From a virus: a stretch of DNA of 37,136 nucleotides. The number at the start of each line of letters is the position of its first letter. Positions within the stretch are counted from its first letter, which is position 1. Positions 1 to 17,733 of the stretch are shown in pieces. The notes beneath the pieces are model-generated. The model had not been told where the DNA came from. It saw only the letters and a program-made list of their open reading frames with translations, and did not search any database. The stretch covers positions 1-37,136 of IMG/VR virus record IMGVR_UViG_3300017746_002756; one strand, written 5' to 3'. The position numbers and the translations under genes are program-made.

Positions 1-252
1 AACTACCATAAATATGTAGTACGGTTTAACGACAAAGAGACTAGAAAACGTGTAAAAACTGCTTTAAACGCCAGTATACACTACGAAACACCTTTGAGCG
101 CAAATACTATGTACGACAGCTTAACCAGCAGGAGAGACGCTTGCACAGCGTCTAAGACGGCATCTAACACGGTTTTATCGTTACCTGTACATGCTTACCT
201 TACAGATAACGAAGTAAATGATATTATTAATGTAGTGAAGGAAAACCTATGA
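1..252 (+). CDS. DegT/DnrJ/EryC1-type sugar aminotransferase, C-terminal end (partial, 5' end outside window)
   Basis: Reading frame 1 is open from the first base to a TGA at 250-252 and gives 83 residues. The family makes amino sugars by PLP-dependent transamination of keto-nucleotide sugars. Seen: a segment beginning KYVVRFNDKETR, then an IHYETPLS stretch that matches the family's usual C-terminal IHYP-PLH region. It ends in SLPVHAYLTDNEVNDIINVV, matching the typical LSLPMHPYLT-E...I..V terminus of these enzymes. The catalytic lysine and PLP pocket would lie upstream of the window. The stop overlaps the next start as ATGA (249-252), so translational coupling with the following nitroreductase-like gene is likely. 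The family call is firm; the sugar substrate cannot be named. Confidence 0.85.
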   Translation, partial: NYHKYVVRFNDKETRKRVKTALNASIHYETPLSANTMYDSLTSRRDACTASKTASNTVLSLPVHAYLTDNEVNDIINVVKENL

Positions 253-1040
253 TAGAAGAATTATTTGGCAAGAGAAGACAGATACGAGCAAGATGGGATC
301 AAAAAAGGTTACCTTCTAAAGAAACAATAAAAGATTTATTAAAACGGACAATGAAAATTGCTCCTTCAAAACAAAATTTATTTCCATTTAAGATTCATGC
401 GTATGGTCCAGACGATTTAGAAGAAAGAAAAATCATAGGACAAATATGTGCTTTATTTAAAACAGGCTCTGTTAATCACATGGATAGTGAAAATAAAAAA
501 GGAATGATTAAAACAGCAATGGGCAACATAAATGTTAACGAACATGTTTTAGATGACCAAGGCAACGATATGAGATTGTCTCCTTGGGTATTAGTATTTG
601 AACAAAGATTGTGTGAGCCTAATAATTTTATAAAAGAATATGCTAAGTTACATAACATAACAGACGAAGCTAGGTTTACACAAGTTTGTCCAAAAAGATA
701 TAGAGGAGCATCTAATACTAAACTTTCTTCTGTTGAAATTGGTATGTTTATAAAATGTTTAGCCGGACTTTGTTTAGAAAATGACTTAGCAATTTCGTAT
801 ATTAAATCTTTTCCTGAATGGGTATGGAAAGATGGGAATGGTGGATATAGTAAAGATATTAATAAGGTTGGGCTAAGTTGGGATAGTCTTCCTGACATTA
901 CAGAAGCACCTATTATGGTTGTACAAATTGGGCATGTGGCTCCTGGTGAAGATTACTTTGCTAGTAACAGTGTAGACCCAAATGACATACACTGGGAAAA
1001 CAAACCTAGTTTAGATACTATAGTGAGGTTTAACAAATAA
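249..1040 (+). CDS. Nitroreductase-like flavoprotein, paralog 1 (263 aa)
   Basis: Probable FMN-dependent oxidoreductase of the nitroreductase superfamily. Seen: an N-terminal Arg-rich element (RRQIRAR, about residues 9-15) followed by APSKQN (about 38-43), the pattern of the family's FMN-phosphate-binding Arg cluster and P-S-x-x-N motif. A helix around EIGMFIKCLAGLCLEN and a terminal IGHVAPGED stretch correspond to the usual dimer-core helix and C-terminal G-rich segment. It shares the unusual FxQRLCEPNxFI block (about residues 117-128) with the next gene, so the two are close paralogs. The start at 249 has a good AAGGA site (GAAGGAAAACCT before ATG) and overlaps the aminotransferase stop. 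The family spans quinone and nitro reduction, deiodination, BluB-type flavin fragmentation and azoline oxidation, so the substrate is open. Confidence 0.75.
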   Translation: MIEELFGKRRQIRARWDQKRLPSKETIKDLLKRTMKIAPSKQNLFPFKIHAYGPDDLEERKIIGQICALFKTGSVNHMDSENKKGMIKTAMGNINVNEHVLDDQGNDMRLSPWVLVFEQRLCEPNNFIKEYAKLHNITDEARFTQVCPKRYRGASNTKLSSVEIGMFIKCLAGLCLENDLAISYIKSFPEWVWKDGNGGYSKDINKVGLSWDSLPDITEAPIMVVQIGHVAPGEDYFASNSVDPNDIHWENKPSLDTIVRFNK

Positions 1041-1705
1041 TGGATTTATTACAACTGTTAGATTCAAGAAAACATGTATACCGATTTAAAGAAGAAGTTC
1101 CGCCTCAAAGTGACATAGAAGAGATATTATTTAAAGCCTGGAAAGTAACGCCGTCAAAGCAGAACTTTATGCCTTATGAAATTACTATTCTAGGACCTAA
1201 TGCTAAACAAGAAAAACTTGCTTGTTACAACTTGGCTAGAATGAACAAAAAAAATGTAAACGAAAATGCTACTAAAGGACATACAGAAGACGGTCATAAT
1301 CCAAACTTCCTTTATTTAAAAAACGCTCCCTACACAATTATTTTTAGTCAACGATTGTGTGAACCTAATCCGTTTATACAAAGAACTATTAATGACGAAA
1401 ATAGTTACTATGAACAAATGCACGAATCAGAACTAGATTCTATATTAAGATCTGCCTCAACTGAAGTAGGTTTATTTGCGGCTAACTTATCTGCGTTTGC
1501 TTTAGAAAAAGGAATAGACGTTAATTACAACGGTTGCTTTCCTAGTAAAGTTAAACATTGGTCTACACTTCCAACAATTAAACACAATCCGATATTAATT
1601 GGTGCTATGGGCTACTGTGATGTACCGAGAAGAAATAAAGTAACTGAATTATTATTTGCTGAAGACCTTAAACCAAATTTGGAAAAGATATTAAAATGGA
1701 TATAA
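1040..1705 (+). CDS. Nitroreductase-like flavoprotein, paralog 2 (221 aa)
   Basis: Second nitroreductase-superfamily protein. The N-terminus has SRKHVYRF (about residues 9-16) and TPSKQN (about 37-42), the expected FMN-binding Arg and P-S-x-x-N positions. IFSQRLCEPNPFI is nearly the same as the matching block in the preceding protein, which supports local duplication. A central EVGLFAANLSAFALEKG helix and an IGAMGYCD end complete the fold pattern. At 221 residues it is about the usual single-domain size and shorter than its upstream neighbour. Its ATG shares one base with the preceding stop (TAATG at 1038-1042), so re-initiation is likely. A GAGG sits about 11 bases upstream. Substrate unknown; it could heterodimerise with paralog 1 (inference). 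Confidence 0.75.
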   Translation: MDLLQLLDSRKHVYRFKEEVPPQSDIEEILFKAWKVTPSKQNFMPYEITILGPNAKQEKLACYNLARMNKKNVNENATKGHTEDGHNPNFLYLKNAPYTIIFSQRLCEPNPFIQRTINDENSYYEQMHESELDSILRSASTEVGLFAANLSAFALEKGIDVNYNGCFPSKVKHWSTLPTIKHNPILIGAMGYCDVPRRNKVTELLFAEDLKPNLEKILKWI

Positions 1706-2433
1706 GAGATCAAATAAAAAATGCTTCTAAAATTACTAACAGGGCACAACGTAATTATGACCTAACTAAATCTATACCTCAAGAAGATTTAGATACACTT
1801 ATACAAGCCGCTGTTAACTCTCCAACAAAACAAAACGAAACACACTATAGTTTACATGTATATACTGATCAAAATATAATTAAACAAATATATAATCATA
1901 CAAAAAAGTTTACAATGATCCGAGATAAACAAGATCAAGATGAAAGTTTTAAAGTAGAAAATGATGTTTTTATACAAAACGATACTAAGTCAATAACTAA
2001 CTCTCAAATTTATGCTAACGCACTATTTGTATATGTTGTAGAACAAGGCAATACTCGTGGAAGTCAGCATCGGGCGGCAAAAGAAAATCCAAATAGTAAT
2101 GCGGCAAAAGTATACGGCGAACAGGTAGCATATTCTATGGGCATATCAGTTGGTGAACTTATACTTTCAGCAGGACTACTTGGATATAAAACAGGAATTT
2201 GTTCGGCACTAGATACAAGACCAATACGTGACATACTCGGAATAAAACAAAATCCTAAATTGCTTGTAGGTGTAGGTTTTCCTAATGAACAACTAAATCG
2301 TATTCAACATTCAGAAGTATTAAACAAAGATGTGCCAGAGAAATTTAGAACAGGCGAATTAGATGAACACTGGAATTTTCCTACGTTTGATAAAAATATA
2401 AAAGTAGTACTAAACGGTAATCCTACCAACTAG
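1696..2433 (+). CDS. Nitroreductase-like flavoprotein, paralog 3 (245 aa)
   Basis: Third tandem nitroreductase-like protein and the most canonical of the set. Seen: NRAQRNYDLTKSIP (about residues 15-28), SPTKQNETHY (about 41-50), a typical SMGISVGELILSAGLLGYKTGI helix and loop in the second half, and VGVGFPNE near the end. It lacks the QRLCEPN block of the other two, so it diverged earlier or was recruited separately. It overlaps the previous gene by 10 bases, with a GGAAAAG site just upstream of ATG 1696. Its last 24 bases overlap the 3' end of the convergent methyltransferase gene on the opposite strand. The substrate cannot be inferred. Confidence 0.78.
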   Translation: MDIRDQIKNASKITNRAQRNYDLTKSIPQEDLDTLIQAAVNSPTKQNETHYSLHVYTDQNIIKQIYNHTKKFTMIRDKQDQDESFKVENDVFIQNDTKSITNSQIYANALFVYVVEQGNTRGSQHRAAKENPNSNAAKVYGEQVAYSMGISVGELILSAGLLGYKTGICSALDTRPIRDILGIKQNPKLLVGVGFPNEQLNRIQHSEVLNKDVPEKFRTGELDEHWNFPTFDKNIKVVLNGNPTN

Positions 2434-3006
2434 CATATAACGTGTACCTCTAGTATCTTTTATCTCGTCTTCAACTAATATTGTAGAGTTATTAGGTAAT
2501 TGATCTTTAAATTCTTGAATACTGCTTACACAATTAATATGTCCTTCAATATCGTACATGTTGTTACTAGTTAACGCAAATGTCATATCTTTTTTCCAAT
2601 ACTGCCATTCTTTCATCGGCCTCATATGTTCACAACTAGGATTAATAACTAAACTAGCAGTATGATATCTTTTTAAATCTAGTTCAAAAATATCACCTGG
2701 TATATATTCTATATTTTTAAGGTGATTAAATAATCTATTTTTTGATGTTTTTAAGACACGGCTATCTAAATCAATACAGGATATCTCTTTTACATGTTTA
2801 GATAATTTTGGAATTAAAATACTTCCGTACCAGCTTCCGAATATAATAACTTCTGATTGTTTATTAACATGTTCTAATACTGCCGAAACAATTTTATCTT
2901 TTGCTAAAAATTGATTATCACTAAACGAATCAATTAAGTCATGTGAATATTCTGAATTTTCTTTTATTTCTTTAACAACGTTTCTAAAAATTTGTTCGTC
3001 TATCAT
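2410..3006 (-). CDS. Rossmann-fold SAM-dependent methyltransferase-like protein (198 aa)
   Basis: Likely class I methyltransferase. Seen: VIIFGSWYGSILIPKL (about residues 53-68) is the strand-loop-helix of motif I, with a G-S-W-Y-G in place of the common GxGxG. CIDLDSRVLKTSKNRL (about 77-92) gives the acidic residue that binds the ribose. IEYIPGDIFEL (about 99-109) matches the motif II D-I region, and INPSCEHMRP lies where the catalytic loop is expected. It is the last gene of the minus-strand cassette, and its start overlaps the carbamoyltransferase stop as ATGA (3003-3006). The 3' end runs 24 bases into the opposing flavoprotein gene. By context it may methylate a sugar or a modified residue; the substrate is unknown and the glycine-loop variant leaves some doubt. 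Confidence 0.65.
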   Translation of the reverse strand: MIDEQIFRNVVKEIKENSEYSHDLIDSFSDNQFLAKDKIVSAVLEHVNKQSEVIIFGSWYGSILIPKLSKHVKEISCIDLDSRVLKTSKNRLFNHLKNIEYIPGDIFELDLKRYHTASLVINPSCEHMRPMKEWQYWKKDMTFALTSNNMYDIEGHINCVSSIQEFKDQLPNNSTILVEDEIKDTRGTRYMLVGRITV

Positions 3007-4466
3007 TTGCTAACCATCTTATCATCTATTACGAGTATATCAATAGCAGTTTCTTCGTAAGTTTCGTATGCTTCATATGGATTCTCTACAATAGGTTCTT
3101 GGCAGTTGAAGCTTGTATTAAGTAACATTGGTATGCCTGTAATTTTATAAAACTCATTTATAAGATCATAAAACTTTTCGTTTTGCTCTCTGTTTACAGT
3201 TTGTATTCTTGCTGTACCGTCAACATGTGTTACACCCGGAATCTTGTCTGACTTAACTGGCATAATCCTACTCATGTATGGACTTGGCTGATTAGTATCA
3301 AAATATTCTTGATAGTGTTCTTCTAACACACTTGGCGCAAACGGTCTAAAGTCTTCACGCTTCTTAATAGTTGTGTTAATGATATTTTTGATATTAGGAT
3401 TACGAGGATCAGCAAGTATACTACGATTTCCTAATGCTCTATTACCGCTTTCAGATAACCCTTGAAACCATCCAACAATTTCCCCATCAGCAATACTTTG
3501 TGCTACTTGTTTAATATCTAAGTCGGAAAAATTATCTGATAAAGAATATTCAAAATGTTTTCCTGATGCTGTATTAGGTATATGTACATTTTTATTTAAC
3601 ACATAGTCAGCGTGCATATACGTACCTAGTGCTTGTCCTTCATCGCCTACTGCTGGTGGAACATGTACATTTGTATAATGCTTAGTAAACATTTCATTCA
3701 TATAGCCATTGTACGCAACACCGCCTGCTACACACAAGTTGTCGCATGTTTTTAAAGGATATACATATTTTTTAATCAAGTCTTCAGTTACCCATTGTAG
3801 CGTATAAGCAACATCTTCTTTTAAATGCTTATCTAAAACTTTCTTTGACCAATCGGGTAATTCAAAGTCATTGTTCATATAGTAATCAATTAAAGCATGT
3901 ATTTGATAATCGTACTGACCGTAACCTGCTAGACCCATAACTTTACCGGCACCTAAGTAACCAAATCCTAAGTCTTGTGATAGTCTGTTCCACAATCCGC
4001 CAATTGATAGTTTATCTGATAAATTATGTATATGTCCGTGCTTGTCAATAAACACACAATTAAATTTCCAACCTTTACCGTCAATAGCAAGTATGTCCGA
4101 CTGCTCATATCCAGAACTTAAAAAAGCGTATGCGGCATGACTTTGATGATGGTCAATATAATAAAAGTTATTCCAATGTCTGGCATCCCATAAGTTTGTA
4201 GGTTTAAAATTTAAAAAATCTTTTGTACCAAATTTTTGTTCGATAAGATCAATTACAAATTCTTGTCCTAAATTAGAAACTGTAAAACATAAAGTTTCAT
4301 CTTCTGTCTTTACATACTGCTCAAAAAATTCTCTACTAGGCTTTCCATCATGTGGATCAGTATTTAAATTATGTTTTCTACGTGTCTGTCTTTCGACTTG
4401 TAAATGTGTTTCTCCGTTATAAGTATTATGGTCATGCATATTTAATGCTACAGAAAATAGTTTCAT
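3003..4466 (-). CDS. NodU/CmcH-family O-carbamoyltransferase (487 aa)
   Basis: Transfers a carbamoyl group from carbamoyl phosphate, through a carbamoyl-adenylate, to a hydroxyl of a sugar or other small molecule. Seen: HHQSHAAYAF (about residues 106-115), the metal-binding histidine motif of the Kae1-like N-terminal domain; ILAIDGKGW (about 125-133), an actin-fold phosphate loop; KVMGLAGYG; CVAGGVAYNGYMNEMF; VPPAVGDEGQALG. In the C-terminal carbamoyltransferase domain is GLSESGNRALGNRSILADPR (about 335-354), where the usual E-x-G-P-R-A-L-G has Asn for Pro. LLNTSFN near the end is typical. The protein is shorter than the roughly 550-600 residues common in the family. ATGA overlaps join it to both neighbours (4463-4466 and 3003-3006), and AGAGGAAATAA precedes the ATG. 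By context it probably carbamoylates a glycan. Confidence 0.92.
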   Translation of the reverse strand: MKLFSVALNMHDHNTYNGETHLQVERQTRRKHNLNTDPHDGKPSREFFEQYVKTEDETLCFTVSNLGQEFVIDLIEQKFGTKDFLNFKPTNLWDARHWNNFYYIDHHQSHAAYAFLSSGYEQSDILAIDGKGWKFNCVFIDKHGHIHNLSDKLSIGGLWNRLSQDLGFGYLGAGKVMGLAGYGQYDYQIHALIDYYMNNDFELPDWSKKVLDKHLKEDVAYTLQWVTEDLIKKYVYPLKTCDNLCVAGGVAYNGYMNEMFTKHYTNVHVPPAVGDEGQALGTYMHADYVLNKNVHIPNTASGKHFEYSLSDNFSDLDIKQVAQSIADGEIVGWFQGLSESGNRALGNRSILADPRNPNIKNIINTTIKKREDFRPFAPSVLEEHYQEYFDTNQPSPYMSRIMPVKSDKIPGVTHVDGTARIQTVNREQNEKFYDLINEFYKITGIPMLLNTSFNCQEPIVENPYEAYETYEETAIDILVIDDKMVSK

Positions 4467-5305
4467 TTTATTTCCTCTAATGCTATTTTTTCTAATATTG
4501 CTTGTCTACGTCCTTTTGGTCGAGGTGGAATAATATCCATACATGCTGTACAATATTTTTCAAATTTAAATAAATCGTGTTCCATCATTTTAGTAATATT
4601 TTCTATTGTAATATCAAACTCACGCGATCCATTAATTGCTTTTCTACTACAATGTCTAATCTTTTGTATTTCAAAATCAAACACAGGTACTTGCGGAAAC
4701 TTAGCACAAATACGTCTTTCTAATTCAGGTGCTTGCTCTAGTTCATGATCACTAAAAAAGTCAGGTGATCTTGAATTGTACTCTTTAAATTCTGTATTCT
4801 TATGATCAATATGACTTATGTCATGTTTATCTCTATATTCAAAGTAACCAGGCGTTTCAATAATAAGATTGTAGTTGTTTAAATCGTTAGGTTCAAACCA
4901 ATCATAGTTTCCTAATTTTTCAATTCGGTCATCATAAAAATCTAATATTAAGTGTTCTATATAGATAACTTCGGGGTCTTCAAGTATGTGTGGATAAAAC
5001 TTACGCACTAAACTATTAGACAACACTTGCGGAATTAAATTAGGATATTTTTTGATCTCTGCTATAATTTCATCTAAATTTTTAATAAGTCCTGGCTCTC
5101 CACCTAATAAGCAGATACGTGTCTTATACGGAGCAAGTCCTTTTAGAATAGTTCTTACTAGATCCATATCAGTATCTAAGTAACGCATTTCTAATGTCCA
5201 AGCGGTACAATAGTGACAACTCTTATTACATGACTTAGATAGATAAAAATCTACTGTCCTGTATTCTTCACTTTTTAGTTGTTCTAATGTTTTAATTGTT
5301 CTCAT
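4463..5305 (-). CDS. Radical SAM enzyme (280 aa)
   Basis: Radical-SAM protein that cleaves S-adenosylmethionine with a 4Fe-4S cluster to start radical chemistry. Seen: C26-x3-C30-x2-C33 (CNKSCHYC), followed by LLGGEPGL (about residues 67-74), the SAM-binding GGEP motif. A C-terminal group of cysteines (RRICAKF, IRHCSRK, and a KYCTACMD near residue 255) may hold an auxiliary cluster, but the spacing is not a clear SPASM motif. A basic PPRPKGRRQ segment follows. AAGGAG stands five bases before the ATG. The gene overlaps the DGD protein upstream by 14 bases and the carbamoyltransferase by 4. Its substrate is unknown; by context a sugar, lipid-linked glycan or peptide modification is possible. 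Confidence 0.85.
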   Translation of the reverse strand: MRTIKTLEQLKSEEYRTVDFYLSKSCNKSCHYCTAWTLEMRYLDTDMDLVRTILKGLAPYKTRICLLGGEPGLIKNLDEIIAEIKKYPNLIPQVLSNSLVRKFYPHILEDPEVIYIEHLILDFYDDRIEKLGNYDWFEPNDLNNYNLIIETPGYFEYRDKHDISHIDHKNTEFKEYNSRSPDFFSDHELEQAPELERRICAKFPQVPVFDFEIQKIRHCSRKAINGSREFDITIENITKMMEHDLFKFEKYCTACMDIIPPRPKGRRQAILEKIALEEIK

Positions 5306-5972
5306 ACCGGCTCCTTAACCAACTAAAATTATTTATTAGCTCAAGATCAGAGCTGTTAGAAATGCCAAAGCGCATGCCGTCGCGAGCACCTCGTAACGCA
5401 TCTCGCTTATAACTTCCAGTAGCATAAGTAGTCCAAGTTTCAAGTCGTTCATTTGTTTCTCCTTCTTCTTGTCTGTTTATTGTTTTACTTGCTAATTTAG
5501 CACATTCTCTAAAAGCACTTTTCCAAGTACTAAAAGAATCTGTATCAAATGCTGTAATGTTACTGACTTCGTCTATTACTTTAAACTTATCACTAATACT
5601 TGTAGTCATGTCAGTAGTTGTTGTATCCATATTACGTGTAAGTGTAGTAGGTAATAGCTTAATACCGCCGTAACCATACGTTAAACTGTTGACTGGATTA
5701 CTACTATGATAAACGTGTACTACATCACTTTCCTCCGCTGTATGAGCAAATTTGAAGCCCTGTACGACCTGTGCGTCACCATCAACTACATAGAAGTAAC
5801 TAGTATTTGCTATTTTAGCCGCTTCGACATGAGCATTGTGTATACCTTCAACGTCTTTAATACGTTTAACCCTATCACCAAAAACTCCAACTGTATTAAA
5901 TCTGTCATACAAATCTTTAAAATTTTCTTCAGCATTTGGCTCGTGATAGCTTATAAAAATAATATCATACAT
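5292..5972 (-). CDS. DGD-motif glycosyltransferase-like protein, paralog B (226 aa)
   Basis: GT-A-like protein seen in marine-phage cassettes, to my recollection, without an assigned reaction. The N-terminus has IIFISYHEPNAEENF, then a segment ending FYVVDGDAQV (about residues 62-71), where DGD could be the metal and nucleotide-sugar-binding D-x-D. LTYGYGGIKLLP follows in the middle. All three blocks recur in the gene at 7332-8225, so the two are paralogs. I chose the ATG at 5970-5972. The frame can be extended five codons to a TTG at 5987, but the paralog begins at the equivalent position. The ATG overlaps the upstream radical-SAM gene by 8 bases. Its position between two radical-SAM genes suggests a shared substrate. 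Donor and acceptor are unknown. Confidence 0.65.
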   Translation of the reverse strand: MYDIIFISYHEPNAEENFKDLYDRFNTVGVFGDRVKRIKDVEGIHNAHVEAAKIANTSYFYVVDGDAQVVQGFKFAHTAEESDVVHVYHSSNPVNSLTYGYGGIKLLPTTLTRNMDTTTTDMTTSISDKFKVIDEVSNITAFDTDSFSTWKSAFRECAKLASKTINRQEEGETNERLETWTTYATGSYKRDALRGARDGMRFGISNSSDLELINNFSWLRSRYENN

Positions 5973-7335
5973 TTTTAATAATCTCAAAAAATCCCTCGTA
6001 CTCAGGAAATGTATTTAAAAAATTTCGTTGACGCCTACGATCATACTGAAGAATAAATTTAAAAAACATATTTTGTGCTTCTTGTTGTTCCTTCCAAAAC
6101 TTATCTTTGTTGTTAAATCTGTGATCAACATCCTCAACAATACGTTTTAGCTTTGCTGTTTCAACTGTTTTAAATCCACGTGGATCAGTATTTTGCTCCA
6201 TAAACGTTAGTGCTGGTCTTAAATAATCATCTACTATCTGTGGATTAGCAATCTTGATATCAAGGAATGCCGGATTACGTACATAAGGAATATCTATTAG
6301 AATACGTTGGTTCCATCTGTTTTCTCCACTGTAAGTTGCTTTTAAATGTAATACCCATATTAAAAAATCTTTGAATGTAGGTAAACTAAAGATATTAAAC
6401 GCACTCATGAAACTAACTTTACTTCTAGTATTTCTAGCAAAGTATTCAACGTTATCTGTAAATTGATGCCAATCCATTCCGTCTCTACTATATTCTGCTT
6501 GTATACCTGTACTTTCTGCGCTAGTATACAATGTAAATTCTTTAATACTTTTAGTATCTTCTAGTTGTTTAATTAACTGTGTAAATTCTTCCCAAAGTCC
6601 TTTAGGCGGACATCCATTAGTATTAATAGCAAATTTAAGTTTAGGCTGTGGATTATCTATTAAGTATTGAATCACTTTCTTAGTATGTTTACTAAGGAGA
6701 GGTTCACCGCCTGTAATTCTAAAAGTAGTCATATGTTTTACTGCTTCTGGAAACCATTTCCAAAATGCTTCAATATAAGGATTTTCTTCACGCTCAGGAA
6801 TAGGTTGTTCATCAGGGTTAATTACATTATATTGCCAGGTCTTTATATCATACGGCCCTTTGGCTTTTACTTCTTCTGTCCACTTACTACTAAATGGCGG
6901 ACCGCAATACGCACATTTAAAATTACATACATTTCCAAAACTAACTTCTACAAAACGAGGATAAAAATCTTCATCTCCGGTTGATGTTGATATTGTATCA
7001 AAGTCTGGCCAACTAAACAAATCTCCGCTTTTATAGACTCTATCACTAAAGTTATCTGTGTTATCTTCAATGCGCCAACAGTAATCACATTCTCCTGGAC
7101 GTTCACCATTAAGCATCTGCTTTCTAGTTTGTTTTTTAAAGCCTGTATTATGTAGTGCGTTAGGATTATTTTTTAATTCTTCTAAATCAATCTTATGTGC
7201 TTTAACATGATGACAACTATGATTGATACCACTACCTAAATGAATAGTAACTTGTGTCCATTTAGCAAGGCAAAAGCCGCAACCAACACTATCTAGTTTG
7301 TCTTTTACAATAATAGGATTTTCCGGAGTTTTCAT
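5965..7335 (-). CDS. Twitch-domain radical SAM protein (456 aa)
   Basis: Radical-SAM enzyme with an unusual order: a cysteine-rich auxiliary-cluster (twitch-like) region lies N-terminal to the core. Seen: C19, C22, C41, C83 and C86 in the first 90 residues (including SCHHVKAH and GECDYCWRIED), then the core C137-x3-C141-x2-C144 (CNFKCAYC) and ITGGEPLL (about residues 207-214). LYTSAESTGIQAEYSRDGMDWHQF lies downstream. The layout matches what I know of a family annotated as twitch domain-containing radical SAM proteins, common in marine phages and bacteria, with no reaction assigned to my knowledge. The start overlaps the preceding gene as ATGA (7332-7335), with AAGGA about 11 bases upstream. 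It sits between the two DGD paralogs. High confidence in family, none in substrate. Confidence 0.88.
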   Translation of the reverse strand: MKTPENPIIVKDKLDSVGCGFCLAKWTQVTIHLGSGINHSCHHVKAHKIDLEELKNNPNALHNTGFKKQTRKQMLNGERPGECDYCWRIEDNTDNFSDRVYKSGDLFSWPDFDTISTSTGDEDFYPRFVEVSFGNVCNFKCAYCGPPFSSKWTEEVKAKGPYDIKTWQYNVINPDEQPIPEREENPYIEAFWKWFPEAVKHMTTFRITGGEPLLSKHTKKVIQYLIDNPQPKLKFAINTNGCPPKGLWEEFTQLIKQLEDTKSIKEFTLYTSAESTGIQAEYSRDGMDWHQFTDNVEYFARNTRSKVSFMSAFNIFSLPTFKDFLIWVLHLKATYSGENRWNQRILIDIPYVRNPAFLDIKIANPQIVDDYLRPALTFMEQNTDPRGFKTVETAKLKRIVEDVDHRFNNKDKFWKEQQEAQNMFFKFILQYDRRRQRNFLNTFPEYEGFFEIIKNV

Positions 7336-8225
7336 CTTATTTGTGGTCCTTGGTAAACAGTTTTAAAAAATTCGCTCTGCTCTTGAGTAAAAGGTTGTAT
7401 AGCGATAGGACATTCTAATTCATTAATAATCCTAGAACCGCTAATAAAAATTTCATCAGTTAATACCTCTGGCGGCATTTCATCTCTATTTGCCCATACT
7501 TCATTTAGTTCATTAAAATCTCTTACTTTAATATAGTCCCAATCGTCTAACATTGTTGCTATTAGTCCTTCACGTGCGCCAAGTATAGCCCAGTCACCGT
7601 TAGTTACATCACTACCTACCATCATCCATACATATAGCATGTGTAAATTTTTATAATGATTCCTTGTAAAAAAATCTTCTTTAGAAATACGTTCACCTCT
7701 ATCTAATGATAACTTTACACCTTCACGGAAGCCTGCTCTCCATGCTTGATAAGGAGTTGCGTTATTATGTGTAGTACTAAATACATCTCTTACTTGTATA
7801 TACTCAGCATCCCAACAAAAATCTACTTGTGCGTGTGGATTATCCGGACTTGCGTTTTCATGTGTACGCATATTTAAGACATATTCTTTTGGCCAGCATT
7901 TAAGTCCGCCGTTGCCGTATGTAAGTCCATTGATAATATTTTTGCCACACCAACTAATTACACACTTTGACATATCTGATTGTCCAAGATCAATAGTTTG
8001 ATTTAAAAATTTTTGATCAATAGTGTTATCGCCGTCAACAGTGATAAATCTATCAGTTTCACTTTGTTCAGCACATATTTTATGGGCGGCATCACTACCA
8101 TGTACTCCGTGTACACGTTTTGCCCACGGCACTTTACTTAATAGGTCGGCATAATTTTCTTCAGCGTTTGGTTCATCATAACTTAAATAAATTATATCTA
8201 ATTCTGCTATTTTTAATTTCATCAT
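7332..8225 (-). CDS. DGD-motif glycosyltransferase-like protein, paralog A (297 aa)
   Basis: Longer paralog of the gene at 5292-5972. Seen: DIIYLSYDEPNAEENY near the N-terminus, RVHGVHGSDAAHK, then RFITVDGDNTID (about residues 60-71) with a DGD that may bind metal and nucleotide sugar, and LTYGNGGLKCWP mid-protein. The extra C-terminal 70 or so residues are not shared. I take the ATG at 8223-8225: it forms an ATGA overlap with the preceding stop (8222-8225) and has AAGGA four bases upstream. The adjacent ATG at 8220-8222 is equally possible, while the longer frame to 8243 begins inside the upstream gene without support. Probably a sugar transfer role in the cassette; the fold assignment is by motif only. 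Confidence 0.65.
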   Translation of the reverse strand: MMKLKIAELDIIYLSYDEPNAEENYADLLSKVPWAKRVHGVHGSDAAHKICAEQSETDRFITVDGDNTIDQKFLNQTIDLGQSDMSKCVISWCGKNIINGLTYGNGGLKCWPKEYVLNMRTHENASPDNPHAQVDFCWDAEYIQVRDVFSTTHNNATPYQAWRAGFREGVKLSLDRGERISKEDFFTRNHYKNLHMLYVWMMVGSDVTNGDWAILGAREGLIATMLDDWDYIKVRDFNELNEVWANRDEMPPEVLTDEIFISGSRIINELECPIAIQPFTQEQSEFFKTVYQGPQIR

Positions 8226-8761
8226 AATTCCTTGTACATACACGTTGCCATGTCACTACTGGCATATACACTATACACGCCGTCTACATTAACTGTTGCT
8301 TCTTTTGGATTAGCAATATTAAATGTAACCATATCATATAGTACATGTGGATCACCTTTTTTTGTAAAACTAAAAGTAATCTCTTTTTGTAAATCTACAT
8401 TTGTAGTCTTCATAGTATCTATTAACTCGATACCTGTACTAATATAACATCTTTTAGCCTTTTTGTCAACCGTTAAAAGCAAATCATACATAACTAATTC
8501 ATCTACAGGCTGTAATTCTGTAAATTGAGATTCATTTTCAATATAGATGTTCTTTTTTAGTACAAATTTCTTTTCAGTTCGATTATATGCTACAATATAA
8601 TCAGTCATTTTCTCTTTAAAGGATTTAATAGGCTCAATTTCTTCCTCAGTAACTTGTATATACTGATGTCCTTCTTCAATACTAGGACCTATACTAAAAA
8701 TTTCTCCGGTTTTTTGATCAAAACAAATATACTGTGGAGTATCTACTTTTACATGTAACAT
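8222..8761 (-). CDS. Conserved protein of unknown function (179 aa)
   Basis: No family function recognised. The N-terminal half has ICFDQKTGEIFSIGPS, YIQVTEEEIEPI and DYIVAYNRTEKKFVL, a run of short strands that I associate with small uncharacterised marine-phage proteins next to tail genes. The C-terminal half (FNIANPKEATVNVDGVYSVYA) looks beta-rich, like a small fibre or carbohydrate-binding domain (inference). No signal peptide or membrane segment is seen. The ATG at 8759-8761 has a near-perfect GAGGAGG four bases upstream; the longer frame starts at a TTG (8776) lying beyond that site, so I reject it. It overlaps the preceding glycosyltransferase by 13 bases and the next gene by 4, so it belongs to the same translational chain. 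Confidence 0.7.
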   Translation of the reverse strand: MLHVKVDTPQYICFDQKTGEIFSIGPSIEEGHQYIQVTEEEIEPIKSFKEKMTDYIVAYNRTEKKFVLKKNIYIENESQFTELQPVDELVMYDLLLTVDKKAKRCYISTGIELIDTMKTTNVDLQKEITFSFTKKGDPHVLYDMVTFNIANPKEATVNVDGVYSVYASSDMATCMYKEL

Positions 8762-9540
8762 AAAGCCTCCTCGCAAAAACTATTTTCGGTATAATGAAAA
8801 AGACCGTGTTGTTTATAGTTTCCAATTTTTAATTCATCATTGATATAATATGGAACAGTGTCAGTCCAACTATCTGTTGAATCTTCCCACCCTTGTACTT
8901 TACTTTTCATATGTACAAATGAGGCAGATGTGTATGTGTAGTTCTGTATTCCGTTATGTAATAAAGCAATTGAATGGTTTACATCCATACTACTTAAACC
9001 AGGTAGTTGCTTAGGAGCATATATTTTGTAAAAGTCTTTATAATTTTCGCATATATTATTAAGTGTTTTATAATATTTTAATGCTGTATTATCTTTTTTA
9101 AAGTAATGAAACGCACAGTAAATATTAGGTAAATTATTTGCTGTAAAAACTTTTCTATAATAATTATTTGTTATAATGTTATTTCTATAGTCTCTTACAT
9201 TGCTAACAAACCCTATACTATTTTGTGCGAAGTATTTCCACCAATGTGAAACATCTGTTAAAAATATCATATCAGTATCTAATACAACTGTTTCATCATA
9301 GGGTGTTAAATGAAACACTTTCCAGCGATGTTCTGTTTTATAAAAACTCCTTGCTTCTTTATCATGCCAAGGTACTTCTATAATTTTATCAAAAACAGAT
9401 TTATATTCTTCTGGAACTACATCACTTGTTACTAAAGATACATTTTTAATAGATTGTGTAGCAATAATACTTTTAGCACACAAGTATGCTTGCTTTACAT
9501 AGTCATCACCCATTGCTACCATAATATATCCCTTAGTCAT
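8749..9540 (-). CDS. GT-A/GT8-like glycosyltransferase (263 aa)
   Basis: Probable nucleotide-sugar-dependent glycosyltransferase. Seen: an N-terminal YVKQAYLCAKSI helix after GYIMVAMGDD, NVSLVTSD, VFDKIIEVPW, and HLTPYDETVVLDTDMIFL (about residues 76-93), in which DTD is the metal-binding D-x-D of a GT-A fold. Late Asp and His residues (LSSMDVNHSIALLHNG, HGLFHYTEN) fit the second metal and acceptor region of GT8-like enzymes. It is a paralog of the adjacent 9533-10357 gene, sharing the order of blocks. AGGAGA lies eight bases before the ATG, and it overlaps the upstream gene by 8 bases. Likely targets are a host surface glycan or phage fibres; the linkage is unknown. Confidence 0.78.
   Translation of the reverse strand: MTKGYIMVAMGDDYVKQAYLCAKSIIATQSIKNVSLVTSDVVPEEYKSVFDKIIEVPWHDKEARSFYKTEHRWKVFHLTPYDETVVLDTDMIFLTDVSHWWKYFAQNSIGFVSNVRDYRNNIITNNYYRKVFTANNLPNIYCAFHYFKKDNTALKYYKTLNNICENYKDFYKIYAPKQLPGLSSMDVNHSIALLHNGIQNYTYTSASFVHMKSKVQGWEDSTDSWTDTVPYYINDELKIGNYKQHGLFHYTENSFCEEALCYM
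8766..8772 (-). promoter_or_regulatory. Strong ribosome-binding site GAGGAGG deciding the start of the 179-aa gene
   Basis: Minus strand GAGGAGG, followed by CTTT and ATG (8759-8761). It lies inside the upstream glycosyltransferase gene. Its strength and spacing favour this ATG over the TTG at 8776 that precedes the site. Confidence 0.7.
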
Positions 9541-10357
9541 TTATAAGTTCTCCTAAACTAAACTTATTCATAACATGTACATTACAATTATTAGTTGATG
9601 CTAGTATATACTCACCTGTATATTTTTCCTTTTCTACTAAAAATGTAAGTGAAGTATCATTAATTGTTTTAATAATATCTTTATCTAGTGTATAAAACAT
9701 TTTGCCTGGTAAAATTTTTGCCCAGTCACCGTCTATAAATCCATTCATCATATGTATAGCAATACTAAACACATGATCATTCCTAAAATTCCTACTACCT
9801 AAATTATATACTTGTTCGTAATGCTTCCAATTATCTACTAAATGTTGTAGTAAATTAAAAAATGTCTTTGTTTCGTGTGTCTTTGTAAAACAAAAACAAG
9901 TTGCCCAATAAAATGGAATACCAGTATCGTTAATATAATCGAACTCTTTATAGTTTCGCCATTCGCATAAATCAACACCGTCTTTATAAATTTGAAAGTC
10001 ATGTACACTATCAAACGCATGTTTAAAAGAATCATTACAGATAATATAATCTGTATCAAGAACAAGAGTAGTATCATACGGAGACAGATCGTAACTGTTT
10101 ACTCTATCATTATTTTTGAATGATAACTGTTGATGATGTAAAGAACCGTTATAGTAACGCTTCACGTTATTATTGTCATCAGCTATTTCAATTACTTTAT
10201 CAAATACATTAGTATCTTGTAATTCACTAATTGTAGATGTTACTAGAGTTGTTGGTAAGTTTAAATACTTGCGTACACGTTTAGCTAATTCTATTGCTTG
10301 CTTGATATAATCAACTTTTCCGTTATTATGAGCAAAGCATAAAACACCATTAGACAT
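9533..10357 (-). CDS. GT-A/GT8-like glycosyltransferase (274 aa)
   Basis: Paralog of the next gene in the operon. Seen: GVLCFAHNNGKVDYIKQAIELAKRV at the start of the fold (shown here as adjoining short blocks), TTLVTSTI, VFDKVIEIADD, and YDLSPYDTTLVLDTDYII (about residues 88-105) with DTD as the putative D-x-D. SLHHQQLSF just before it replaces the Lys/Trp-rich stretch of its paralog. A later RNDHVFSIAIHMMNG block contains Asp and His in the position expected for metal and acceptor binding. Its start overlaps the 112-residue gene by 8 bases and lacks a strong Shine-Dalgarno site, so translational coupling is likely. It is the first clear enzyme after the structural genes. The family is fairly sure; donor sugar and acceptor are not. 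Confidence 0.75.
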   Translation of the reverse strand: MSNGVLCFAHNNGKVDYIKQAIELAKRVRKYLNLPTTLVTSTISELQDTNVFDKVIEIADDNNNVKRYYNGSLHHQQLSFKNNDRVNSYDLSPYDTTLVLDTDYIICNDSFKHAFDSVHDFQIYKDGVDLCEWRNYKEFDYINDTGIPFYWATCFCFTKTHETKTFFNLLQHLVDNWKHYEQVYNLGSRNFRNDHVFSIAIHMMNGFIDGDWAKILPGKMFYTLDKDIIKTINDTSLTFLVEKEKYTGEYILASTNNCNVHVMNKFSLGELIND

Positions 10358-10688
10358 GTACCAAACCTTCTACACTACGATTTTTGCTAATCTCTTTATA
10401 ACTTGTAAGATACTTGTTTGTAGCATCAGCATACTTTTGATGAGCTAAAGTTGTAAAGTCTTCTAAGTCGTCAATTTGAATAGGAGTATTATTGTCATCG
10501 ATTAACACAGTGTTTGGTGTCTTTAACATATGACAGAAAGTTAATACTTCTTTTGTAATACTAAACTTCCCACCTTTGTAATATAAAATAAGATCACCGT
10601 GATAAGTTTCAAGAAGTATACGCTTCTGAGAGTTAAGGGTAGCAGTAAAATTTGAGAAGTCTAGTGCTTTCTCTAATTTTTCGTCCAT
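10350..10688 (-). CDS. Small conserved phage protein (112 aa)
   Basis: Function unknown. A charged N-terminus (MDEKLEKALDFSNF) leads to TLNSQKRILLETYHGDLILYY, GGKFSITKEVL and TVLIDDNNTPIQIDDLEDF, followed by a helical tail. Proteins with this pattern occur, to my recollection, near fibre genes of marine T4-like phages. The size and position before the glycosyltransferases could suit a small chaperone or adaptor (inference only). The ATG at 10688 has AGGAG eight bases upstream and sits in a 36-base gap that carries a possible late-promoter box. It overlaps the next gene by 8 bases, so it probably heads the enzyme cassette's transcript or is read through from the structural genes. Confidence 0.7.
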   Translation of the reverse strand: MDEKLEKALDFSNFTATLNSQKRILLETYHGDLILYYKGGKFSITKEVLTFCHMLKTPNTVLIDDNNTPIQIDDLEDFTTLAHQKYADATNKYLTSYKEISKNRSVEGLVHV

Positions 10689-10715
10689 AGTTATACTCCT
10701 AGTTTATAGTATAAC

Positions 10716-10723
10716 TATTTACT
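10716..10723 (-). promoter_or_regulatory. Weak late-promoter-like box AGTAAATA before the 112-aa gene
   Basis: Minus strand AGTAAATA in the 36-base gap before the small conserved gene, followed by AGGAG eight bases before its ATG. Two mismatches to the T4 late consensus in AT-rich DNA, so only a candidate. If real, it would start the transcript of the glycosyltransferase/radical-SAM cassette. Confidence 0.25.
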
Positions 10724-10724
10724 C

Positions 10725-11639
10725 TTAGAGGTTGTTTGTAGTACTGAAAGTTGGCGCTGTAATATTAACGCTATTTGAGTTATTAGGTCTATTTTGCTGT
10801 GCTGTACTAGTTGTAGTTGCTGTAACTGCTTCGTCAAAGTTTGGATTAGGACCTTTATCTTCATTAAATGTAATTCTAAATGTTAACACATTACCGTTCT
10901 TTTTTGCTTCAATTAAATAGTCATTAGCCGAATATGCTGATGCTGTTTTATTAAAGATTGTTGTATAACCTGTTGGTAAATTTGAATACCCGTAACTAGT
11001 TCCTACTGAACCGTTTGATGTAGTTGATCTTTTAAATTGTACTGTACCAACACTATTCATTAAATTACGCCAGTCATTGTTAATGGTTGAATTACCACTA
11101 CCAATAGTTCCGCTTAAATTAATAGTTCCACCTGCGTTAAAATATACACGCATATGATTTTCGCCACTTACTGTTGTAGTACTACCGTCGCCGTTAGTTA
11201 CAGAATATCCACCGAAAGTAACAGTAAAAATATGATTAATATCTGTTGACCAGCTTGCTGTTCTTTGACTGCTTGTGCCTGACTGTAAACCTAATTGGTT
11301 TGCGGCCGCAGTTAATCTAGATGCTTGAGCTGTAATGCTTAATGCTTCGTATTGAGCATAGCCTTCTTTGTTAGTTGAATTTGAATCTAAAATAGTATCG
11401 CCAACACTAGGAACTGCTACCTCTGTTGGGACTGAACCTGTTTGGTGTAACCTACACTTTGTCATATCAGAAGATAGGTTTGACATATCTGAGGCGGTTA
11501 CTGTTGCTCCAACTGCTACTGTACTACTAGTTACTGCTTGCCCGTAACCTTCGTCACCGGATCCTAGTCCTAGTACTCCTGCTATTCTTGCTCTAATATT
11601 ATTGTACCGCGCCGCGGTGATTGTATCGCCTACTGCCAT
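10725..11639 (-). CDS. Putative virion or tail-appendage protein (304 aa)
   Basis: Likely structural. The N-terminus MAVGDTITAARYNNIRARIAGVLG and the related DMSNLSSDMTKCRLHQTGSVP (about residues 51-71) are blocks I associate with structural proteins of marine myoviruses. The remainder is Thr/Ser/Asn/Gly-rich and beta-like (VTFGGYSVTNGDGSTT, GTINLSGTIGSGNSTI), as in fibre or decoration proteins. It ends in a low-complexity Asn/Thr tail. No transmembrane or catalytic motif is seen. It follows three fibre genes and has AAGGAAG five bases before the ATG, with a TATAAGTA box just upstream. The virion role is inferred from composition and neighbours; whether it is an adhesin, fibre tip or baseplate appendage cannot be said. 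Confidence 0.72.
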   Translation of the reverse strand: MAVGDTITAARYNNIRARIAGVLGLGSGDEGYGQAVTSSTVAVGATVTASDMSNLSSDMTKCRLHQTGSVPTEVAVPSVGDTILDSNSTNKEGYAQYEALSITAQASRLTAAANQLGLQSGTSSQRTASWSTDINHIFTVTFGGYSVTNGDGSTTTVSGENHMRVYFNAGGTINLSGTIGSGNSTINNDWRNLMNSVGTVQFKRSTTSNGSVGTSYGYSNLPTGYTTIFNKTASAYSANDYLIEAKKNGNVLTFRITFNEDKGPNPNFDEAVTATTTSTAQQNRPNNSNSVNITAPTFSTTNNL

Positions 11640-11655
11640 AATGCTTCCTTTTTAA

Positions 11656-11663
11656 TACTTATA
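11656..11663 (-). promoter_or_regulatory. Late-promoter-like box TATAAGTA before the 304-aa gene
   Basis: Minus strand TATAAGTA, one base from TATAAATA. It ends 16 bases before the ATG and is followed by AAGGAAG. It overlaps the TAA stop of the 494-residue fibre gene (11659-11661), the same arrangement as at 13172. Confidence 0.4.
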
Positions 11664-13143
11664 CTTTAAGTACACACTCAATTAACTTTTCTGACTCGTC
11701 GTCACTAGCCTCTAGTGCAATACCAACTAAACCTGTTGACGCAATCGTTGAACATACGCCATCTTCCCAAGCGTAAACTGGATCACCTTTTGCTACAACA
11801 CCTTTTACTCTTACTGGAACACGACCTTTAAGTCCAATTGCCTGTCCATCACAGTCGCTATTCATTAAGTATGCTGGTTCTGCAGATATAACACCAATAC
11901 AATGACTACTTGTTTTTGCCGCTGTTGTTTCAGCTTCTCCACCTACACACATTGCTGTACCTGTTGGATAGTCTTGATCAGTTGTATAAACTTCTGCCAA
12001 GTCAGCATATCTAGCACTTGTTGAAATACCATTGAATACATTTGCTGACAAATTACCACTTGAGTCACGTACTGCTACTGTATTATTAGTAGGGTTAACA
12101 TCACCTGTTCTATAATTTGATCCGACTTGTAAGTTAGTAGCATTAGTTGCCAAACCATTAAACGATGTAGCATATATATTTCTAAACTTAATTGAACTAC
12201 TACCAATATCATATGTTGTAGTTGCTGTTGGCATTAATCCATCTGATGAAATATGGAATGGTTCTGTTGTTACAAACCCACTAGACTTAACTTTAAATCT
12301 AATTTTTTGTCCTACAGTGTTTTCAATAATACCTTCATTGCCTGCGCCAGCTGTATCAATGTAAACCTTTAAATCGTTTGCCGCACCAACTGTAAATCCA
12401 GCGTCGGAAAATCTAACAATATCACCAAATGAACTTTCTTGTCCTGGTGTATTTTGTACAAAGTTTGCCGCAAGTACGCCGCCTAATGCTTCAGCATTAG
12501 TTGCTGTACCGTGGAATCTATGCGCTGATGCTGTAACACCATTTGTACCTGATGTTGTATTTCTTAGTGTAACACCTTGTCTAATTACATCATAGCCAGT
12601 AATTACGTTAGCAGGGTCTGTTTGGTCAATAGTAAATTCTGCGTTACTTACAATAAACACAACTCCGTCATCAACAGTACCTTTAATAATTGTTCTGTTA
12701 TTTTGTGAAGTATCTCTTACTTGTGCTGTAACCATAGCACTAACTGTTTCACCTATAGACTGTGGACCAATTAGGACAAATCCGCCGTCTTCGTTTTGTG
12801 CGTATAGTTGGTTATTGCCACTATCCCACCAAAAATCACCAGTAGTTAATCCTACCGGTTGTGTAGTAGCTACTTCAGCACCACCTGTTGTTCTAAATTT
12901 TGTTCCGTCATAAAACTTTAGTTTTTTCACCGAGCTATCAAACCAAATCTGTCCTGATAAAGGATTAGCTGGTGAATTGCCACTGGAAAAACTTTCCATC
13001 AAATGTACAAAGTTTTCGTTTTGGATTTCACCATAACCAGCATAATTCTTACCTACTAGCTTAATAGTAGTGCTTTGGTCAATGGTGCCATCTTCAACTG
13101 TGGTTAACTGTTGTCCATTTGTTAAATTGATTACATATGCCAT
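11659..13143 (-). CDS. Tail-fibre protein, paralog 3, with a distinct C-terminal domain (494 aa)
   Basis: Fibre-like protein. Residues 1-130 hold the domain shared with the two upstream genes: MAYVINLTNG, a D-G-T-I-D/S-T element, GYGEIQNENFVHLMESF, then two Trp/Tyr repeats (GQIWFDSSVKKLKFYDGT, about 64-81, and GDFWWDSGNNQLY, about 102-114) ending in IGP. The middle is repetitive and beta-rich, as in trimeric fibres. Residues 377-494 form a separate C-terminal domain: YADLAEVYTTDQDYPTGT, HCIGVISAEPAYLMN, KGRVPVRVKGVVAKGDPVY. This resembles the terminal domains of other phage fibres, possibly related to intramolecular-chaperone or Peptidase_G2-like ends, though that link is uncertain. It is preceded by the best late-promoter box in the window (13172-13179). 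Confidence 0.85.
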   Translation of the reverse strand: MAYVINLTNGQQLTTVEDGTIDQSTTIKLVGKNYAGYGEIQNENFVHLMESFSSGNSPANPLSGQIWFDSSVKKLKFYDGTKFRTTGGAEVATTQPVGLTTGDFWWDSGNNQLYAQNEDGGFVLIGPQSIGETVSAMVTAQVRDTSQNNRTIIKGTVDDGVVFIVSNAEFTIDQTDPANVITGYDVIRQGVTLRNTTSGTNGVTASAHRFHGTATNAEALGGVLAANFVQNTPGQESSFGDIVRFSDAGFTVGAANDLKVYIDTAGAGNEGIIENTVGQKIRFKVKSSGFVTTEPFHISSDGLMPTATTTYDIGSSSIKFRNIYATSFNGLATNATNLQVGSNYRTGDVNPTNNTVAVRDSSGNLSANVFNGISTSARYADLAEVYTTDQDYPTGTAMCVGGEAETTAAKTSSHCIGVISAEPAYLMNSDCDGQAIGLKGRVPVRVKGVVAKGDPVYAWEDGVCSTIASTGLVGIALEASDDESEKLIECVLKV

Positions 13144-13171
13144 TTAAATAAACCCCTAATTGTGTTATATG

Positions 13172-13179
13172 TATTTATA
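13172..13179 (-). promoter_or_regulatory. T4-like late promoter box TATAAATA before the 494-aa fibre gene
   Basis: On the minus strand this reads TATAAATA, an exact match to the T4 late-promoter consensus. It lies 28 bases before the ATG of the downstream fibre gene, with AGGGG in between as a ribosome site. The TAA stop of the 612-residue fibre gene (13175-13177) is inside the box. Confidence 0.6.
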
Positions 13180-15013: not shown

Positions 15014-15014
15014 C

Positions 15015-17096: not shown

Positions 17097-17707
17097 TATT
17101 CACTCAATCCTGATAAACTTTGTACACGCACAGTATAATCAATTTGAATAAGTCTATTCAAACTCTTTTGTACTGGGTGGAAAATTACATGTGTTAACAG
17201 TCTACCTTGTCCTGATGGGCTATAACTTACTAAGCCTAGTTCATCAAATACATATAAACTATCAGCGTTGGTTGCGTTATCAACAGCATCTTGCCCTGTT
17301 GGCTCACCATAGTCAAGTAAGCAACTAACAACAATATCTGTATAATTAGTGCCGCTTACGTGCCTTGATTCAATTTTATTTCTTGCTGGATCTGTGTTAT
17401 TAACACTTCTATCATCAACAACTTTGATAAAAGTTTGGTTATACAAACTAGCATTAGTTCCTGTTGAGTTTGGTGTTAAGTATGTAATAATGCCTGTAGG
17501 ATCAATACTAGTTCCACCATTACCAAATGCCATTTGATACACAAATCCTTCACCTGCGTTAGCTAAACTTTCAGCTAATGAAATACTCATATTCTCATAA
17601 TGAATAGCATTCCGTTTATCAATAAGCACTTCGCCTGATTTAGGGTCAGTTATCTTAATATGTCCTTGGAGCATTACTCCGTTTTGTTCTTTAATAGTGT
17701 CTATCAT
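17096..17707 (-). CDS. Conserved virion or baseplate-associated protein (203 aa)
   Basis: Probably structural. The N-terminus has GHIKITDPKSGEVLIDKRNA, HYENMSISLAESLAN and YQMAFGNGGTSIDPTGII, a pattern I recall in marine T4-like phages between the large tail protein and fibre genes. The rest is beta-rich, with FDELGLVSYSPSGQGRLLTHVIFHP near the end. In T4 this genome position is held by gp9-gp12 baseplate pins and fibre sockets, so it may connect fibres to the baseplate (inference). I see no sequence match to gp9, gp10 or gp11. The ATG at 17707 has AGGA about nine bases upstream, and the 21-base gap before it holds an AATAAATA box (17726-17733). Confidence 0.72.
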   Translation of the reverse strand: MIDTIKEQNGVMLQGHIKITDPKSGEVLIDKRNAIHYENMSISLAESLANAGEGFVYQMAFGNGGTSIDPTGIITYLTPNSTGTNASLYNQTFIKVVDDRSVNNTDPARNKIESRHVSGTNYTDIVVSCLLDYGEPTGQDAVDNATNADSLYVFDELGLVSYSPSGQGRLLTHVIFHPVQKSLNRLIQIDYTVRVQSLSGLSE

Positions 17708-17725: not shown

Positions 17726-17733
17726 TATTTATT
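17726..17733 (-). promoter_or_regulatory. Late-promoter-like box AATAAATA before the 203-aa gene
   Basis: Minus strand AATAAATA, one base off the T4 late consensus. It ends 18 bases before the ATG at 17707, leaving room for a short leader with AGGA. The giant protein's TAA stop (17729-17731) falls within the box. Moderate support because the region is AT-rich. Confidence 0.4.

Follow-up and report, generated by a model that had tools for sequence, protein, structure and literature searches.

A two-part gene cassette, probably for glycan assembly and tailoring, beside the tail fibre genes of a large T4-like, putatively marine phage

We analysed positions 1 to 37,136 of the IMG/VR virus record IMGVR_UViG_3300017746_002756, a stretch of 37,136 nucleotides that is called the window below and that belongs to a large T4-like, putatively marine phage. 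The subject is a chain of minus-strand genes in which the fibre and collar genes lie directly upstream, as they constantly do in related loci. An earlier note on this DNA had described nine minus-strand open reading frames at 2410-10357, all overlapping, as a glycosyltransferase and radical S-adenosylmethionine (SAM) modification cassette next to fibre genes. The open reading frame list with the best ATG starts bears out the nine genes, their order and their overlaps, and the family assignments together with the constant fibre adjacency uphold the general description. We show here, however, that the cassette begins one gene earlier and falls into two separable units, and that the alternation of genes to which that note attached a function does not survive comparison with related loci.

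Genes of the cassette

The features are as follows, unit A and unit B being the two parts defined below.

10350..10688, minus strand: g0, 112 amino acids, head of the chain, with a weakly prefoldin-like coiled-coil/beta-hairpin model
9533..10357, minus strand: GTa, GT8-like (glycogenin-type) glycosyltransferase with a DxD motif
8749..9540, minus strand: GTb, GT8-like glycosyltransferase, paralog of GTa (glycogenin profile comparison; phrog_1903, E 2e-9)
8222..8761, minus strand: U184, fast-evolving unknown protein in a fixed position, 179 amino acids from ATG
7332..8225, minus strand: DGD1, putative GT-A-fold glycosyltransferase-like protein, DxD at 64-66
5965..7335, minus strand: SAM1, N-twitch radical SAM enzyme
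5292..5972, minus strand: DGD2, shorter paralog of DGD1 by sequence comparison
4463..5305, minus strand: SAM2, radical SAM enzyme, unit B
3003..4466, minus strand: CT, NodU/TobZ-type O-carbamoyltransferase, unit B
2410..3006, minus strand: MT, class I methyltransferase-like, unit B
1696..2433, plus strand: NR3, nitroreductase-family flavoprotein, unit B (PF00881, E 2e-14)
1040..1705, plus strand: NR2, nitroreductase-family flavoprotein, unit B (PF00881, E 2e-7)
249..1040, plus strand: NR1, divergent paralog of NR2, unit B (25% identity, E 8e-19)
1..252, plus strand: C-terminal end of a DegT/PseC-like sugar aminotransferase, unit B (DegT profile, E 1e-45)
10725..17707, minus strand: tail fibre and collar genes (304, 494, 612, 693 and 203 amino acids; collar domain, fibre PHROGs), in the same order across loci

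From GTa to MT the junctions overlap by 8, 13, 4, 4, 8, 14, 4 and 4 bases, and g0, the gene added here at the head, overlaps GTa by 8. At the other end, MT extends 24 bases into NR3, the nearest of the three nitroreductase-like genes which, with the DegT/PseC-like end (1-252), are convergent to the chain. Since the junctions among the upstream structural and fibre genes are gaps or near-abutments, this tight overlapping is specific to the cassette. No membrane-spanning segment was found in any protein of the chain, and an Rfam search of the window gave no match.

Proteins of unit A

GTa and GTb are paralogs (32% identity, E 1e-10), and their joint profile matches glycogenin-1 and glycogenin-2 over the N-terminal half only (E 2e-7 to 6e-6). 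The two aspartates of their DxD motif, D101 and D103, are invariant. We term them GT8-like rather than members of GT8 because none of 28 GTa/GTb members matched a Pfam glycosyltransferase family above its gathering score.

DGD1 and DGD2 form a second pair of paralogs (27% identity, E 1e-17), for which no Pfam, NCBIfam or PHROG family was found. The AlphaFold2 (AF2) model of DGD1 has a predicted local distance difference test score (pLDDT) of 92 and a predicted template modelling score (pTM) of 0.90. Its best Foldseek matches are the PBCV-1 capsid glycosyltransferase (E 3e-4), RmlT, WrtF and SunS, with E values from 3e-4 to 1e-3, and the aspartate pair of its DxD motif (D64, D66) is invariant across 36 sequences. 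Judged from this model, the DGD proteins are a putative GT-A-fold glycosyltransferase-like family absent from Pfam. A sequence search of the PDB with the DGD and SAM1 profiles returned nothing useful.

For U184, searches of Pfam and PHROG gave no family match above cutoff, and its homologs occupy the matching position in related loci. In all 108 neighbour counts the gene ahead of GTa is g0. Its AF2 model (pLDDT 88) resembles prefoldin beta in Foldseek with template modelling (TM) scores of 0.53-0.57 and E values of 0.3-0.8, which are not significant; on this model a role as fibre chaperone is possible. Among the 50,697 named phage records of INPHARED, nothing matched DGD1, GTb, g0 or U184.

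Radical SAM and tailoring enzymes

The label of a twitch radical SAM enzyme, which the earlier note had given to SAM1, proved right: the protein scores 307.7 bits against NF033640 (N-twitch radical SAM; curated cutoff 170), and invariant cysteines C22, C41, C83 and C86 in its N-terminal part accompany the invariant C137/C141/C144 and GGEP. SAM2 matches Radical_SAM (PF04055) and carries four additional invariant cysteines (200, 219, 252 and 255) after the SAM core; in direct comparison its resemblance to SAM1 is marginal. In related and other phage contigs, 4-8 radical SAM genes stand in series (L086, L112, L139, L142, L154 and L157), and in two loci the SPASM and radical SAM domains are separate adjacent unit B genes (L004:14410-15475, L163:12275-13241).

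CT matches Carbam_trans_C (PF16861, E 3e-66) and Carbam_trans_N (PF02543, E 1e-19), and its metal-site motif is intact, with H106, H107, H110, D129 and D275 invariant. It is 58% identical to its counterpart in the cultured Pelagibacter phage Mosig, where the following gene, the counterpart of MT, is annotated as a methyltransferase; the matches of MT itself to class I methyltransferases are all below threshold. The DegT homolog in a related locus (L004) matches PF01041 (2e-82) and PseC (2e-55).

Two separable units in related loci

IMG/VR searches, with the best 80 matches taken per locus search, yielded about 260 loci, some of them sharing a contig and many being contig fragments. In nearly all core loci the order g0-GTa-GTb-U184-DGD1-[SAM1]-DGD2, which defines unit A, is kept behind the same fibre genes. 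Twelve contigs with a complete core, up to 262 kb long, were searched whole; each has two GT8-like genes and two full-length DGD genes, no more and no fewer, apart from an additional DGD fragment in one.

The variable member of unit A is SAM1. DGD1 and DGD2 directly adjoin in 76 loci; in 46 SAM1 stands between them, and in 4 they are separated by a larger insert whose first gene is SAM1. In a tree of DGD1, whose deep order is unsure owing to long branches, the state without SAM1 is limited to one weakly supported group, a pattern consistent with one loss of SAM1. Of the core loci that extend 3 kb or more downstream, 40/40 having SAM1 carry unit-B-type genes, as against 0/48 lacking it.

Unit B comprises DegT, the nitroreductases, x285, rSAM241, SPASM119, SAM2, CT and MT, whose order and strand differ between phages. 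SAM2 is followed by CT in 73/79 loci, and DegT is present in 74/79. Mosig carries all of unit B beside its tail fibres but no DGD or GT8-like match, and hence no unit A.

These counts bear on the strict alternation of DGD paralogs with radical SAM enzymes, from which the earlier note had suggested two parallel modification steps on the same acceptor. DGD1 and DGD2 are adjacent in the 76 loci above, and SAM2 directly follows in only 9 of the roughly 207 occurrences of DGD2, with the window's own contig counted repeatedly among these 9. Gene order over these occurrences rules out strict alternation as a functional signal. Since the DGD2-SAM2 adjacency is so rare, the apparent alternation marks where unit B begins in the lineage of the window; and because CT is so regularly its next gene, SAM2 is assigned to another unit than DGD2. 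The conserved DGD/radical SAM neighbourhood that the note had proposed to look for thus exists for SAM1, in its 46 loci and in contigs of Bdellovibrionota metagenome-assembled genomes (MAGs), and is rare for DGD2 and SAM2.

Leader of g0 and fibre promoters

Two candidate control signals were located in the window, by folding and by consensus matching.

10687..10718, minus strand: predicted 11-bp RNA hairpin with arms 10718-10708 and 10697-10687 (minimum free energy -12.4, z -2.87)
13172..13179, minus strand: TATAAATA, T4-type late-promoter-like site before the 494-amino-acid fibre gene (exact word match)

The hairpin covers the ribosome-binding site of g0 and the first bases of its start codon. 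The leaders of g0 (from L003-L162) fold with a mean z of -2.5, and 78% lie below -1.5, while seven other gene groups stay about 0 (+0.5 to -0.45). Across 17 distinct leaders 97.8% of cells are paired, with few two-sided changes. Within the clade of the window one pair changed on both sides, a covariation matched by 58/500 shuffles. Support for the hairpin therefore comes from structure kept across diverged leaders and not from pair counts.

A sigma70-type promoter, called at a minimum of 10/12 consensus bases, stands before g0 in 28/69 distinct loci, as against 3.9% in shuffles, and keeps an almost constant distance (about -46 to -58); cassette genes other than g0 and the fibre genes are mostly at background. 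In many loci, the window among them, exact TATAAATA sites lie about 20-45 bases ahead of a fibre gene; over the window as a whole the word is depleted (2 found, 9.5 expected). A T4 late promoter within the hairpin arm was considered and rejected, such a site not being conserved. Given a sigma70-like promoter of its own in these 28 loci and the hairpin in the leader of its first gene, as opposed to the late-promoter sites of the fibres, unit A appears on sequence grounds to be controlled separately from the late fibre genes.

DGD relatives outside phages

When 84,980 prokaryote genomes were scanned, 28 loci proved to contain relatives of DGD. Several MAG contigs with an entire unit A are probably phage contigs in bins. 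In three Photorhabdus isolates (L195, L196, L197) a DGD2-like gene is flanked by GT4 and GT2 genes; a nucleotidyltransferase and an ABC/HlyD pair are encoded nearby, and this cluster also has a PcrB-like prenyltransferase and an FAD oxidase. In Bdellovibrionota MAG contigs (L180, L181, L183, L184, L187, L188, L193) DGD genes are clustered with N-twitch SAM1-like genes, MT-like genes and further radical SAM genes, and GT2 and amidotransferase-like genes lie close by. The context in both groups therefore speaks for DGD acting as a glycosyltransferase and for a functional DGD-SAM1 link that is independent of fibres.

Structural neighbours

The window further encodes gp25, PAAR, gp6 and then a structural protein of 4978 amino acids (17729-32665, minus strand) before the fibres. 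Its gp6 is closest (32-38%) to those of the jumbo T4-like phages Phosso, SCTP-2 and Atu_ph07, and similar giant proteins (about 4450-4555 amino acids) stand at the matching place in Atu_ph07 and Phosso. Six PF13759 (2OG-Fe(II) oxygenase) matches are spread over one related contig (L095, 261,806 bases).

Discussion

We propose, with a probability of roughly two in three, that the locus is a two-part cassette for the assembly and tailoring of a glycan. Working in sequence in the cytoplasm of the infected cell, the four soluble glycosyltransferases of unit A, two GT8-like and two DGD, would put together a short oligosaccharide on an acceptor located there. SAM1, where present, would introduce a radical-chemistry change into a sugar or an intermediate. 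Unit B would be an exchangeable tailoring set, either providing a rare amino or carbamoyl sugar or decorating it, through amination, redox and radical steps, carbamoylation and methylation. The cassette would thus probably give the virus or its host an unusual coat of sugars.

Several points weigh against this proposal. We infer the catalysis, the order of steps and the identity of the sugar, and the fold match of DGD to PDB structures is modest (TM 0.3-0.44). The association of SAM1 with unit B could stem from a small number of evolutionary events, chiefly a single loss. In the window itself the g0 leader has a sigma70-like match of just 8/12, below threshold. The early-type promoters of related lineages and the presence of unit B in a cultured phage of SAR11 fit a change of the host envelope too.

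The acceptor is the point at which the main alternative arises. No flippase (PF01943) was found in seven large contigs, with a positive control, so that these contigs lack the flippase of a Wzx/Wzy-type O-antigen cluster; together with the absence of a membrane-spanning cassette protein, this disfavours a new exported polysaccharide. Soluble enzymes and the missing flippase point to a cytoplasmic acceptor, and as the constant core lies beside the fibres, a phage-encoded acceptor is favoured. We therefore slightly favour a fibre or other virion protein, at a little under even odds, while a host envelope glycan is a substantial though lesser possibility. In the latter case the enzymes would, early in infection and from the cytoplasmic side, alter lipopolysaccharide (LPS) or another surface glycan of the host, thereby preventing rival phages from adsorbing and so excluding superinfection. 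This is the published reading for the pelagimyophage fibre islands with GT8 and radical SAM genes (PMC7029224) and for the capsule clusters of jumbo phages (PMC7824862), and we consider it credible without thinking it the probable answer. It would suit a unit A whose promoter and leader are apart from those of the late fibre genes, and a variable unit B shared with Mosig. However, typical serotype-conversion genes are not constant as the gene content of unit A is across lineages, and both the missing flippase and the fixed position of unit A next to the fibre genes speak against it. In its most specific form our proposal would have the phage glycosylate its own tail fibres or virion proteins with a radical-SAM-tailored amino or carbamoyl sugar, using four fixed glycosyltransferases and a tailoring module exchanged between lineages; stated so fully, we hold it tentatively and as rather unlikely.

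Two further readings involve no surface glycan. The enzyme set of unit B resembles aminoglycoside tailoring, so DegT, radical SAM enzymes, CT and MT could make a diffusible aminocyclitol-like or nucleoside-like product that the glycosyltransferases glycosylate. A carbamoyltransferase cluster of jumbo cyanophages has been proposed to make a secondary metabolite (PMC7824862), and the Photorhabdus cluster with the DGD homolog has ABC/HlyD export. Nevertheless, neither a scaffold-forming enzyme nor an exporter was seen in the window, unit A always lies beside fibre genes, and it occurs without unit B in 48 loci, which makes a small-molecule pathway improbable. Glycosyltransferases of T-even phages act on phage DNA, and those of the cassette could in theory join the carbamoyltransferase in modifying DNA bases. 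We regard such hypermodification as very improbable: the cassette is grouped with fibre genes, PF00303 is present in just 2/7 large contigs, and no Tet/JBP match was found in these contigs, a weak negative given that control genomes gave none either.

Comparison with known systems

In phage T4, the ribosome-binding sites of the late genes e and soc are masked by hairpins. The hairpin of g0 similarly lies over a ribosome-binding site, with an effect that is predicted only, but unlike in e and soc no late promoter was found within its arm.

The earlier note had called the cassette an undescribed system, which is too strong, given that fibre-adjacent glycosyltransferase and radical SAM islands (PMC7029224) and carbamoyltransferase and capsule clusters of jumbo phages (PMC7824862) have been published. 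Unit A as a constant set, the division of the cassette into two units, the DGD family and the leader signals did not appear in the literature searched, and the first two are likewise absent from the named phage records that were searched. A close parallel is the host recognition cluster of pelagimyophages, a fibre-adjacent island with GT8 glycosyltransferases and radical SAM cassettes that come and go (PMC7029224), and the cassette of the window is likewise a fibre-adjacent island combining these two kinds of genes. However, the pelagimyophage island is hypervariable, whereas here the core g0-GTa-GTb-U184-DGD1-DGD2 is fixed and includes the putative non-Pfam GT-A family. The position differs as well: the pelagimyophage cluster lies between VrlC and gp14, while the fibres of the window come after gp25, gp6 and the 4978-amino-acid structural protein. 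The lineage of the window is T4-like with a gp6 nearest to jumbo phages, unlike the pelagimyophages.

The clusters for capsule or LPS and carbamoyltransferase in jumbo phages and cyanophages (PMC7824862) share with the cassette paralogous glycosyltransferases, carbamoyltransferases and methyltransferases. In contrast to them, the window has no recognised epimerase, kinase, halogenase or nucleotidyltransferase, is rich in radical SAM genes and uses other glycosyltransferase families. The rhizobial jumbo phages Phosso (of Sinorhizobium) and Atu_ph07 (of Agrobacterium) (L169, L170) have a tight series of radical SAM genes in the corresponding location, downstream of the fibres and the giant structural protein, but no homolog of g0, the GT8-like proteins, U184 or DGD, and faint similarity to SAM1 only.

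Mosig (EXVC030M; MT647606, Mosig_00082-00090) shares unit B, with nitroreductase, x285, rSAM, SPASM, DegT, SAM2, CT and MT by the tail fibres, and differs in lacking unit A; its genome paper does not discuss the module. By this comparison, putatively aquatic phages have a constant glycosyltransferase core tied to the fibres and, distinct from it, a sugar-tailoring module that can be exchanged; DGD, as a candidate GT-A family outside Pfam, links these phages with Photorhabdus isolates and Bdellovibrionota MAGs. Mosig, being cultured and carrying unit B, is the place to ask whether modules of this kind modify the virion or the surface of the host.

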